In this document: positions 16,206-19,914 of the stretch, piece by piece
Position numbering within the stretch: the first letter of the stretch is position 1
Layout: every line of letters starts with the position of its first letter
Source: Methanolobus sp.
GTDB taxonomy: Archaea > Halobacteriota > Methanosarcinia > Methanosarcinales > Methanosarcinaceae
NCBI RefSeq assembly: GCF_030682845.1
Contig: NZ_JAUXNK010000097.1
Span: 1 to 35,428, forward strand
Direction: 5' to 3'
DNA length: 35,428 nt
Position numbers and translations under genes: made by a program
The notes under the pieces: model-generated
What the model was told of the DNA's origin: nothing
Database searches by the model: none
The model's input: only the letters and a program-made list of their open reading frames with translations

Positions 16206-16697
16206 TTAGTTCGCCTTTAAGGTTTCCTGGTGTGCAATCATTATGTCGTCGAGCTTCATTATGAGGTTCCCTTCTGAAACATTATAAGGGATACTTTCCT
16301 TGGGATATGCCACACAAGCTCCTCCAATGCCCATGCCCGTGGATGCATCAAATGTGGTGGTGCATGCATCACATACAAGTGTGCTCCTATCAAGTGCAAA
16401 TCCAATAGAACCGCATGGAGGACAAACATTGGACCTGATGGAGATCTCATCATCAAGCATGTATGCCATTACCGCAAGCTCACCAATGTCAGTATTCACC
16501 TTGAAGTGGACATTTGTATGCTTATCCACTGCTGCAAGAGGTATGGAAACAGTGTCCTCTGTCGTCAGGGAGCTTATCCATGTGGCTTCCACAGGCTTTG
16601 CAGAGCCCTTTAACGCAGAATCAGTTCCCGTACACCCAAGTGCAAGTACAGATATCACAAGCACCGACAAAACCACACCGATCAATTTTAAATTCAT
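16206..16697 (-). CDS. DUF2318-type cysteine-rich lipoprotein
   Basis: A 163-residue exported protein with a lipoprotein signal (VLALGC, lipid-accepting Cys22). The C-terminal half has a CPPCG motif (Cys92, Cys95), Cys109-x2-Cys112 and Cys128, the pattern of DUF2318, whose members are predicted to bind metal or an iron-sulfur centre outside the membrane. It is last in a minus-strand operon after an FtsX-like permease and an ABC ATPase, five bases behind the ATPase stop. In Campylobacter the corresponding set (Cj1658-Cj1663, P19 system) handles iron; the Ftr1 permease and P19 are missing here, so the substrate is open. Confidence 0.85.
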   Translation of the reverse strand: MNLKLIGVVLSVLVISVLALGCTGTDSALKGSAKPVEATWISSLTTEDTVSIPLAAVDKHTNVHFKVNTDIGELAVMAYMLDDEISIRSNVCPPCGSIGFALDRSTLVCDACTTTFDASTGMGIGGACVAYPKESIPYNVSEGNLIMKLDDIMIAHQETLKAN

Positions 16698-16702
16698 GTT
16701 AC

Positions 16703-17371
16703 TTACTCCGCGATATTCCCGTCCACTAAGTTCACAATCCTGTCAGATAACATGGCAAGCTCCCTGTTGTGAGTGACCATGATCACTGTCATCTCGCCGG
16801 CCAGCGACCTGAGCAGGGAGATTATCATAGAACCCGTGGTGCCATCCAGTGCTCCGGTGGGTTCATCAGCCAGTAATATTTTCGGCTTCATGACAATTGC
16901 GCGCGCAATTGCGACCCTCTGCTGTTCACCTCCACTCAGCTCAGCCGGCTTGTGCTCTTTACGATGGGACAGCCCCACCCGCTCCAGAGCAATATCAACA
17001 GCACCGTTATCCTTTTCTCCGGCAAATACCAGCGGCAGGGCAACGTTCTCGTAGGCTGTGAGCGAGGGTATGAGATGAAACTGCTGGAACACGAAACCAA
17101 CGGTCCTGCGCCTCAATCCTACCAGCTCTTTCTGGGGCTTGAGAGTGATGTCATTCCCATCGATGAGGATAGTCCCTTCACTTGGACTGTCAAGCATGCC
17201 GATGAGATTCATCAGGGTGGTTTTCCCGGAGCCGGACTGGCCCATTACGGATACGAATTCGCCTTTCTTCACATCCAGACTGATACCTCGCAGTACCTCC
17301 ACTTCACCAGCTCCCATGGGATATCTTTTACCTGCACCCTGAATACGGATCATATTGTTACCATCAGACAC
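16703..17371 (-). CDS. ABC transporter ATP-binding protein (MacB/LolD type)
   Basis: A 222-residue ATPase with Walker A GQSGSGKTT (about 44-52), Q-loop FVFQQFHLIPSLTAYEN, signature LSGGEQQR and Walker B ILLADEPTGALD. This subfamily pairs with FtsX-like permeases in mechanotransmission-type complexes rather than in classical import. The GTG at 17371 overlaps the permease stop by eight bases and has GAGGTG upstream; ATG 17353 is an alternative. It is coupled to the permease and followed by the DUF2318 lipoprotein. Confidence 0.93.
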   Translation of the reverse strand: MSDGNNMIRIQGAGKRYPMGAGEVEVLRGISLDVKKGEFVSVMGQSGSGKTTLMNLIGMLDSPSEGTILIDGNDITLKPQKELVGLRRRTVGFVFQQFHLIPSLTAYENVALPLVFAGEKDNGAVDIALERVGLSHRKEHKPAELSGGEQQRVAIARAIVMKPKILLADEPTGALDGTTGSMIISLLRSLAGEMTVIMVTHNRELAMLSDRIVNLVDGNIAE

Positions 17372-18539
17372 TTCTCAACACCTCTGCCGGATCAACACCA
17401 AGAGCCCTTTTTGCAGGCAGGATGGATGCCAGCATGCCGGTAAGGACACATACACCTGTCACCGGAAGCAGGATCGACCACATTGGCAAAGGTGTCACCT
17501 GCACCAACAAAGGAGCGGCAATGGACGAGGCAATAGTTCCCATCACAAAGCCAATGATGCCTCCCACAGCCCCTATAATCGCACCTTCGAAGAGCAGCAT
17601 GGATACAACCTGAGCATCGCTCGCACCAACCGCACGCATAATACCTATCTCCTTCAATTTCTCATTCACTGAAGCGAGCATGGTAGAAGCGACAGTCAAT
17701 GTGCTCACCAGCAGGGTGATAATTGAGACTGCCATTGCAGAAGACCGGATGTGTTCGACAATAGCCAGTTCGTTGCGGACTATCTGGCTCATGGAGCGGG
17801 CTTCCAATCCCGGAAATTTCTCTTCGATCTGCATGCTGATCTCCTCAACCGGGCAAGTATTGCACAATGCTCTTACCTCCAGACTGCTTACTTTTCCCTC
17901 CCTGCCGAGCAGATGCTGGGAAGCAGCAAGCGGAAGTATCACATATGCATCCTCATTGCCACCTGTGCTTTCTATCACACCGGTGACCTGGGCATCCATC
18001 GAGATATTGCCATTACGGAGGGTTATGGAGGAGCCTTCGGTAAGTCCCATGGGTGTGGCTACGTCCGAACCAATCATAACTTCAGTCTGCCCGGCGCCTT
18101 CTGTGGATATCCAGTCTCCTCTGACCTTCCACCAGGACTTGAGCTTCCTCTCCTCTTCCGGATCCACGCCCATTATGACAACCGATGCGTTACCAAGCTC
18201 TGCAACCCCGTATAATCGTGGTGCCACAGCTGAAAGCTTGGAGCTATCCATAATGGTGTATATCCGGGGAATCTCTGATTCCTCTATGTAGTTCTCTCCC
18301 ACCAGAAGAGAACCCATTGAGGTTGAGCCAGCCAGCAGAGGAATGGTTTTGACCTCCGGCCGGACTATGATATTTGCACCGAAATTATTGGATTCTTCGT
18401 AAAGGCTATCTGTAGCTGCTGAAAATGTTGTGACCACAGCCACCAGTGCCGCAGAGGCTACGGCCACGCCGAGTACAGCCACCAGAAGTTTTATTTTTCT
18501 GCGGGATATGTCTTTCAGGACCAAAGAGTGTAAACGCAT
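17364..18539 (-). CDS. ABC transporter permease, FtsX-like
   Basis: A 391-residue protein with the MacB/FtsX layout: one N-terminal membrane helix (about 15-40), an extracytoplasmic domain of about 220 residues, then three C-terminal helices (about 262-285, 312-335 and 350-375). The conserved KEIGIMRAVGAS cytoplasmic motif precedes the third helix, and the C-terminus has PAKRALGVDPAEVL. The extracytoplasmic domain has a CNTCPVEE motif with two cysteines that might form a disulfide or bind a thiophilic ligand. It is first in the operon, divergent from the blaI-like gene, with GAGGT seven bases before its ATG. Confidence 0.93.
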   Translation of the reverse strand: MRLHSLVLKDISRRKIKLLVAVLGVAVASAALVAVVTTFSAATDSLYEESNNFGANIIVRPEVKTIPLLAGSTSMGSLLVGENYIEESEIPRIYTIMDSSKLSAVAPRLYGVAELGNASVVIMGVDPEEERKLKSWWKVRGDWISTEGAGQTEVMIGSDVATPMGLTEGSSITLRNGNISMDAQVTGVIESTGGNEDAYVILPLAASQHLLGREGKVSSLEVRALCNTCPVEEISMQIEEKFPGLEARSMSQIVRNELAIVEHIRSSAMAVSIITLLVSTLTVASTMLASVNEKLKEIGIMRAVGASDAQVVSMLLFEGAIIGAVGGIIGFVMGTIASSIAAPLLVQVTPLPMWSILLPVTGVCVLTGMLASILPAKRALGVDPAEVLRSV

Positions 18540-18597
18540 AAGTAAACCTCAAAATATATAACCGGGACTTTTCCGACACGGGTTGCTTCCAACGTGC

Positions 18598-18667
18598 TAT
18601 ACATTAAGTGTAAACAACCGGTTTGACAATAAGTGTAAATCTATTTTAACTTTACGCCAGGTGTAAA
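18598..18667. promoter_or_regulatory. Three operator-like elements upstream of the permease operon
   Basis: Three 17-bp elements of the form T-W/T-T/G-A-C, six variable bases, TGTAAA lie in tandem: TATACATTAAGTGTAAA (18598-18614), TTGACAATAAGTGTAAA (18623-18639) and TTTACGCCAGGTGTAAA (18651-18667). The third is a good inverted repeat (CTTTAC/GTAAAG). Starts are 25 and 28 bases apart, two to three helical turns. They are the likely binding sites of the divergently encoded BlaI-type repressor, whose bacterial relatives bind TACA/TGTA dyads. Confidence 0.7.
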
Positions 18668-18787
18668 GCAGCTGGATGTTTCTTCCTTGTCTTGAAATAA
18701 AGCCCGGGGTACCCAGGAGAACTTTGACCAAGCCTGAACCGCGGCCACTGTTAGCAGCAAAAAGATGACATATCCATGATGATTAAA

Positions 18788-18817
18788 CTTATATCATTAT
18801 ACACCTGTTGTAAACAC
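18788..18817 (+). promoter_or_regulatory. Promoter of the blaI-like gene with overlapping fourth operator
   Basis: A TATA box (cttatat, 18788-18794) lies about 27 bases before ATG 18818, implying a leaderless transcript. The fourth operator copy, TATACACCTGTTGTAAA (18798-18814), fills the space between TATA box and start, an ideal place for autorepression. This spacing also argues against a start at the upstream ATGs (18776, 18779), which precede the promoter. Confidence 0.7.
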
Positions 18818-19174
18818 ATGGTAAAACTTGACCGGATAAACATTTCAAATGAAGGTCTGACCAAGTTCTTCAGTCCGATTGAGGCTCAGATAATGACGGT
18901 CCTGTGGGAGAATGGAGAGTGCACCACGCCGGATATCACCGAGAGGACAGGCATTCCTTTATCCAGCGTAGCCGGGACACTTGACAGGCTCGTTAAGGCA
19001 GGCTATGCCAAAAGGACTATTGATAAGAACGGGCAGAGGGTCAGATACCTGTATTCTGCAAGCGAGTCAATGGACAGGACGGCAAATTCTATCACGCGTA
19101 AAGTACTGGACAGTCTTGTTGATACTTTTGGTAAAGTAGCCATAGACAACTTCCATAGTTACGAGAAGAAATAA
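18818..19174 (+). CDS. BlaI/MecI/CopY-type winged-helix repressor
   Basis: A 118-residue regulator. After a short tail it shows FSPIEAQIMTVLWENGE, TTPDIT, SSVAGTLDRLVKAGY and a wing with KRTIDKNGQRVRYLY, the pattern of the BlaI/Penicillinase repressor family; a C-terminal helix for dimerisation follows. Bacterial homologues are inactivated when a membrane protease (BlaR1/MecR1) senses a signal. Here the next gene encodes a membrane metalloprotease, and operator-like sites surround the promoter, so self-regulation and control of the divergent ABC operon are likely. The start follows from the TATA-to-ATG distance. Confidence 0.9.
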   Translation: MVKLDRINISNEGLTKFFSPIEAQIMTVLWENGECTTPDITERTGIPLSSVAGTLDRLVKAGYAKRTIDKNGQRVRYLYSASESMDRTANSITRKVLDSLVDTFGKVAIDNFHSYEKK

Positions 19175-19218
19175 GAGCTCAGAGAAAAAAATCATGAAGA
19201 TGTCCTGGAGCGTTGAGC

Positions 19219-19914
19219 ATGTTTTCCATACAGGATGAAGTTGGGTGTTATATAGCCTGTGTCGCTGATTCCGGTCTGCTGCCGTGGCTAATGGCATCAC
19301 TGTTCATGGCCTTGCTGCTGTTCGCATTCTATCTTAAAGCCAGAAGCTCCCGGAGCCGGATATCCTCATTCATTGCTGCACAACTATGCATGCTCGCTTC
19401 TATCGCAATGGTGGTTTCGTCCATGCAGTGCAGCCGGATGCTTACCATTGAGATATACACAGCCTATGTGTTCCTCTCAACTATGCTTATCCTGTTCTTG
19501 CCACGGATATATTATAGGATCCTAATCAAAAGATACAGGGCCCGTCCAGTCGCAGAGCTTATGGAGTGGCCACAGGTATTTGTGAACAGTCTTAAAGAAC
19601 AGTACAAAACGCCTGGCATGTCAGAGGTTTATTATTACAACTCTGCAGTTCCCAGGGCTTTTGCTTCAGGAAAGACCATATTCCTTTCCATGGGGCTGCT
19701 CGAGATCATGGACAAGGCTGAGCTGAAGGCAATACTTGCGCATGAAGTGTGGCACCTGCGCCACAATACCCGGACGCCCATACTCAGGCATCTTTCTATG
19801 ATAACCTTCACACGAAACTTCTCAGAGAGCGAACTCGAGAACATGGCAGATATATTTGCAGCAGATGTTGTAAGCAGGAGAGCAGTGGAATCAGCAAGGT
19901 CCAAAATGAGCTAG
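19219..19914 (+). CDS. Membrane metalloprotease, M48/M56 type
   Basis: A 231-residue protein with three membrane helices (about 20-40, 50-70 and 80-103) and a cytoplasmic zinc-protease domain: PRAFASG, then HEVWH at 175-179 and a third ligand Glu207 in ENMAD. The sequence before HExxH resembles HtpX/M48; position after a BlaI gene resembles BlaR1/M56. No extracytoplasmic sensor domain is present. It is short at the C-terminus and ends with TAG soon after the ligand helix; another frame stays open to 19967 with a coiled and then hydrophobic reading, so a frameshift is possible. ATG 19219 is preferred over TTG 19213 because CTGGAG lies eight bases upstream. Confidence 0.85.
   Translation: MFSIQDEVGCYIACVADSGLLPWLMASLFMALLLFAFYLKARSSRSRISSFIAAQLCMLASIAMVVSSMQCSRMLTIEIYTAYVFLSTMLILFLPRIYYRILIKRYRARPVAELMEWPQVFVNSLKEQYKTPGMSEVYYYNSAVPRAFASGKTIFLSMGLLEIMDKAELKAILAHEVWHLRHNTRTPILRHLSMITFTRNFSESELENMADIFAADVVSRRAVESARSKMS

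Follow-up and report, generated by a model that had tools for sequence, protein, structure and literature searches.

Genes for a BlaI-type repressor and a membrane protease of M48-like type beside an FtsX-FtrD operon in Methanolobus: a candidate BlaR1-like switch in archaea

Introduction

In a Methanolobus genome, the genes for a BlaI/MecI-type repressor and a membrane metalloprotease stand divergently beside an operon encoding an FtsX-type permease, an ABC ATPase and a DUF2318 lipoprotein, an arrangement that raises the question of whether the protease governs the repressor and the repressor governs the transporter. The five genes occupy positions 16206 to 19914 of contig NZ_JAUXNK010000097.1 (assembly GCF_030682845.1), and the whole 35,428-nucleotide stretch analyzed here is referred to as the window. 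A preliminary description of the locus had proposed such a circuit, acting on a metal or redox exporter. Comparison with related loci makes a regulatory link between the BlaI-protease pair and the transporter operon well supported, and we consider it probable, at roughly 60%, that the five genes form one regulatory-effector unit, a BlaR1-like switch for extracytoplasmic redox, iron or cytochrome functions. Loci and genomes are cited by handles (L and G), family-level groups by f and genera by g; f1, the family of the window, is taken as Methanosarcinaceae, and f5 and f9 appear to be Methanoperedens-like (ANME-2d) and Archaeoglobaceae-like, respectively.

Results

Operator-like dyads and the repressor-transporter link

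The 278-bp gap between the two divergent units contains four 17-bp dyads of the form TTTAC(A/G)-N5-(T/C)GTAAA, assigned to neither strand, at 18598..18614 (TATACATTAAGTGTAAA), 18623..18639 (TTGACAATAAGTGTAAA), 18651..18667 (TTTACGCCAGGTGTAAA) and 18798..18814 (TATACACCTGTTGTAAA); 0.15 would be expected in the window by chance, and none of 100 shuffles reached four. The preliminary description had overlooked these dyads. All four are recognized by this pattern and by their conservation across loci: in 14 Methanosarcinaceae loci nothing else in the gap is as well conserved as the dyads, and each module of this family has two to four of them. Their half-sites are of the TACA/TGTA type, as for BlaI/MecI, with a spacer of 5 bp rather than 2, and we regard them as candidate binding sites. 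The fourth dyad follows a TATA-like box (18789-18794) and precedes the BlaI start codon at 18818, a position that would suit repression or autoregulation of BlaI, and a dyad just 5' of the BlaI start recurs in nearly all f1, f5 and f2 loci. A sigma-70 promoter and terminator scan is uninformative for archaea.

At each of the 14 Methanosarcinaceae loci with a close BlaI, the window included, the five genes share one order, with the two units divergent, and the flanking genes of the window are common to only three of the 13 other loci. The whole module, with three dyads, is also present in the distant family f7 (two of two loci, L135 and L157). Co-occurrence, which the preliminary description had named as the test of the association, is therefore complete in these two sets of loci but not universal: elsewhere the BlaI-M48 pair has other targets, and eight genomes carry the transporter without BlaI. 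In two f2 genomes, G001 and G005, the FtsX-ATPase-FtrD operon and the BlaI-M48 pair lie on separate contigs, and the start of the operon keeps two dyads. The eight genomes with the operon and no BlaI, all of g5, have zero dyads in the stretches read. Because the dyads are kept in trans and are missing where BlaI is missing, the link has been tested independently of adjacency.

A scan of whole Methanosarcinaceae genomes found dyad clusters at the module only. The housekeeping ccm genes of this family were considered as regulon members and ruled out, since their ccmE loci (L140-L148, L151) have no dyads. All intact Methanosarcinaceae modules fall in ccmE-positive genomes, a correlation uncorrected for phylogeny. 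In G115, the only genome with traces of the module in which ccmE is not detectable, a broken module remains (L079, L080), with FtrD fragments and a protease gene containing stops.

The membrane protease

The protease gene (19219..19914, plus strand) is open from a TTG at 19213, from which residues are numbered here, and its likely start by alignment is the ATG at 19219. The product of about 231 residues has three predicted transmembrane helices and an HExWH motif (H177-H181) with a downstream glutamate ligand, E209; together with a Peptidase_M48 match of 37.8 bits (cut-off 20.3), this identifies it as an M48-type peptidase. H177, E178, H181 and E209 are kept in 57 protease sequences from five family-level groups, E209 in all but one gapped row. 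In the same groups, C12 and C16 of a CxxxC motif are kept in 56 of the 56 rows that cover them, and M71-x-C73 in 57 of 57. The N-terminus and the loop between the second and third helices are predicted to lie outside and the catalytic domain inside. A structure model shows three long helices but is poor overall, with a mean predicted local distance difference test score (pLDDT) of 68.9, too poor for a fold search. A single-protein scan of genome contigs gave one close named relative, in a Methanolobus metagenome-assembled genome.

No Pfam match to a penicillin-binding sensor domain was found, nor would about 231 residues leave room for one. The preliminary description had seen no sensor domain on the protease; as regards a domain of the penicillin-binding protein (PBP) type this stands, but the protease has three invariant cysteines on its predicted outer face. 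Since the predicted topology joins a cytoplasmic protease domain to an invariant outer CxxxC/MxC set, it is plausible that the protease is a one-piece sensor with a minimal outer cysteine set.

The repressor

The repressor gene (18818..19174, plus strand; Penicillinase_R PF03965, 38.0 bits, cut-off 22.6) is open from 18776, and a conserved MVK in the alignment points to the ATG at 18818 as its start. The alignment reveals no conserved cysteine or histidine that could serve in sensing, and with no conserved cysteine the protein does not have the C-terminal CxC metal motifs of CopY. Near its C-terminus, N125-F126, invariant in 42 sequences, corresponds in the alignment to N101-F102, where S. aureus BlaI is known to be cut (PMC9834060; the comparison sequence is identical to PDB 1sd4). 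We treat this match as a lead only, since the asparagine is replaced by tyrosine or serine in other families.

A PDB search with the single BlaI sequence returned no BlaI/MecI match, and a search with a BlaI profile matched BlaI/MecI weakly. The fold model compares with MecI (1sd6) at Z 10.8, no better than with many MarR/TrmB winged helices, and so the fold does not settle membership of the BlaI/MecI family.

The transporter operon

The left operon, on the minus strand, begins with the FtsX/MacB_PCD-type permease gene (17364..18539; Pfam FtsX 68.8 bits, MacB_PCD 61.2 bits), which overlaps by 8 bp the gene for the MacB/LolD-type ABC ATPase (16703..17371; ABC_tran 130.9 bits) and is followed after it by that for the FtrD-like/DUF2318 lipoprotein (16206..16697; PF10080 36.8 bits, cut-off 26.3). 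A check of the open reading frames and Pfam matches of the window thus recovered both divergent units and all five genes where the preliminary description had placed them.

The lipoprotein carries the cysteines C92, C95, C109, C112 and C128 in the arrangement CxxC-x13-CxxC-x15-C, in agreement with the published DUF2318 motif CxxC-x13-CxxC-x14/15-C (PMC6083913), and belongs by motif and profile to the DUF2318/FtrD-FetA proteins. The permease has a CxxC (C226, C229) in its predicted extracytoplasmic core domain, invariant over 23 sequences. P19 (PF10634) and FTR1 (PF03239), which the preliminary description had noted as lacking, are absent from the whole genome and not just from the locus. C. 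jejuni needs the homologous genes fetA-D to grow when iron is limiting, and their products are believed to relay reducing power (PMC10783030), but a Campylobacter-like role in iron uptake is not simply transferable to a genome without FTR1 and P19. Our best guess is that FtsX-ATPase-FtrD would be an extracytoplasmic module for redox or for iron/heme handling.

Dyads in relatives

Each f5 genome has 10-21 exact dyads, as against 1-3 for a reversed control pattern, and many of them precede ccmE-ccmF-ccmH, thioredoxin-like, PCYCGC, DsbD_TM and MacB/FtsX genes, with FTR1 alongside. In f2, dyads precede ccmE as well as a thioredoxin-PCYCGC-DsbD operon that is divergent from a BlaI paralog. The BlaI-M48 pair of f9 adjoins ccmF-ccmH at 12 of 15 loci, with a strong dyad present at 11 of these; the two g46 loci without ccm genes have none. 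One genome, G140, combines the five-gene module with a ccmE-Trx-PCYCGC-DsbD-FTR1 operon behind two dyads.

Separately, the BlaI-M48 pair of most f5 genomes is followed by a second M48 gene, which is HtpX-like (L047, L049, L055 and others). In G001, a second BlaI paralog (L103:2997-3431), about 30% identical, is divergent from the thioredoxin-PCYCGC-DsbD operon with the same dyads, and paralogs may therefore share one operator.

Discussion

In the model that we propose, dimers of BlaI would occupy the dyads and so keep both units repressed. An extracytoplasmic signal, perhaps the state of thiols and disulfides, heme or a soft metal, would be sensed by the outer CxxxC/MxC cysteines of the protease, whose catalytic domain, predicted to be cytoplasmic, would then inactivate BlaI, probably through a cut in the C-terminal dimerization helix, as by BlaR1. 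Derepression would raise the levels of protease, repressor and the FtsX-ATPase-FtrD complex, the last of which may act as a redox/iron-handling module of the FetABCD kind that works without FTR1 or P19. In the phylum at large, the pathway might govern cytochrome c/heme maturation together with thiol redox outside the cytoplasm. The binding of BlaI to DNA, its cleavage by the protease, the signal and the chemistry of the effector are all inferred. A broader view, to which we give somewhat less than an even chance, is that this is an archaeal form of proteolytic signaling of the BlaR1-BlaI kind, with a minimal three-cysteine sensor in an M48-like protease. Its ancestral role, in methane-cycling archaea and related lineages, would be to control cytochrome c maturation and the redox state of thiols and iron outside the cytoplasm, and in Methanosarcinaceae it would mainly control the FtsX-FtrD module. 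The circuit of the preliminary description is partly supported, by conservation and above all by operator evidence that does not depend on adjacency; "metal or redox exporter" proves too narrow, because the targets in relatives belong to cytochrome c maturation and to thiol redox outside the cytoplasm, and nothing shows export.

Like the BlaI-BlaR1 and MecI-MecR1 systems of Staphylococcus and Bacillus, the locus pairs a BlaI-family repressor with a membrane zinc protease, has TACA/TGTA-type half-sites in a probably autoregulated divergent layout and, in Methanosarcinales, has an N-F dipeptide where bacterial BlaI is cut. The archaeal protease, however, lacks two defining features of BlaR1: it is M48-like instead of having an M56 domain, and three outer cysteines stand in place of a PBP sensor. 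Furthermore, the BlaI of this locus has no last helix, the operator spacer is 5 bp as opposed to 2 bp, and the targets are redox and cytochrome genes and not beta-lactam resistance. CopY/CopR shares the BlaI-type repressor and related operator half-sites, but CopY senses metal itself through its C-terminal CxC and has no controlling partner protease. The C. jejuni fetMP-fetABCDEF locus (the P19 iron locus) has the same DUF2318 motif, an FtsX-type permease and an ATPase, and FTR1, thioredoxin and FtsX/MacB genes lie behind or beside dyads in archaeal relatives; the archaeal locus differs in having one permease and not two, a DUF2318 lipoprotein in place of an 8-transmembrane-helix protein, and BlaI-type instead of Fur control, in a genome devoid of FTR1/P19. 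The catalytic domain with HExxH and glutamate ligands is that of HtpX (M48B), whereas the three N-terminal helices with outer cysteines, the lack of an evident transmembrane hairpin after HExxH and the pairing with a repressor gene set the archaeal protease apart.

Several observations weigh against the proposed BlaR1-like switch. The M56 (BlaR1) profile scores 19.0 bits against the protease, below its cut-off of 31, and because the protease model is poor the predicted topology relies on hydrophobicity and on the positive-inside rule. In a wider set of repressors, the asparagine of N-F is replaced by tyrosine in 13 of 59 and by serine in three of 59, and a global alignment based on a hidden Markov model puts the BlaI C-terminus elsewhere. 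The BlaI-M48 pair occurs without a dyad at two f9 loci and at both of the f34 loci, and the Methanosarcinaceae regulon seems limited to the module. Finally, BlaI paralogs are present in f5 and f2 genomes, and so some of the dyads there may belong to them. As to the f34 loci (L126, L127), a direct repeat lies upstream of the L126 BlaI in place of a dyad, perhaps another operator type.

Some of these points would fit a different division of labor, in which BlaI represses the operon, BlaI or another factor senses, and the M48 protein is an HtpX-like quality-control effector of the regulon that does not act on BlaI. The catalytic domain is indeed nearest to HtpX (3cqb, E 2e-7), M48 scores above and M56 below the cut-off, f5 genomes carry the second HtpX-like gene beside the pair, the N-F site is not universal, and a few orphan BlaI loci (L048, L069) have no protease. 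We nevertheless think this unlikely, given that the pairing of BlaI with the protease is near-strict in five families, with genes that often overlap, despite changed neighbors, and that the invariant outer cysteines are on the protease whereas BlaI has no conserved cysteine or histidine. Those cysteines, with the methionine of MxC, could also bind Cu(I), and the regulon might then guard against extracytoplasmic copper and mis-metallated thiols in parallel to CopY, to which BlaI is homologous and whose TACA/TGTA operators are related; cupredoxin-like and YHS-like genes (both read from sequence alone) and PCYCGC genes near f5 dyads would agree with this. The commonest targets, ccmE/F/H, DsbD and thioredoxin, are not copper exporters, the Methanolobus module contains no such exporter, and the dyad spacer is 5 bp rather than 2, which leaves copper sensing a still slimmer prospect than a quality-control role.

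The same parts and the same five-cysteine DUF2318 motif as in C. jejuni, where fetA-D is needed under iron limitation (PMC10783030, PMC6083913), together with the FTR1 and thioredoxin genes behind or beside the dyads of relatives, would allow the operon to be chiefly one for iron uptake, with a switch that answers iron limitation. With no FTR1 or P19 in the genome and with cytochrome c maturation as the commonest shared target in relatives, we regard this as improbable, to about the same degree as the quality-control role. Far less credible than any of these is an accidental neighborhood devoid of functional link: the units are separable, as the eight transporter-only genomes and the f5/f9 loci with the pair and no transporter demonstrate, but the dyads are conserved in cis and in trans and are gone where BlaI is gone, and the trans dyads of G001/G005 and their absence from the g5 genomes contradict it.

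If the BlaR1-like switch is real, a single regulator with a single operator motif would have a defined target list (ccm, thioredoxin, DsbD, FTR1, FtsX-FtrD), and the outside thiol, heme and iron state would be tied to gene expression in methane-making or methane-oxidizing organisms. In the open-access literature, subscription journals lying outside the search, we found no description of archaeal BlaR1-type signaling or of this pathway, no match for BlaI in Methanoperedens and nothing relevant for BlaI in Methanosarcina or with M48. Nor did the literature searched describe any regulation of archaeal cytochrome c maturation.

CcmH in archaeal operons

CcmH has been called universally absent in archaea (PMC9084895), and another paper found it in Ferroglobus placidus only (PMC4429474). 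At loci examined here, dyads precede archaeal operons of the form ccmE-ccmF-ccmH or ccmF-ccmH, and these include CcmH (PF03918), in f5 (L088:411-833, L089, L100, L101) and in f9 (L129:5687-6121), the assignment having been tested with Pfam in L088 and L129.

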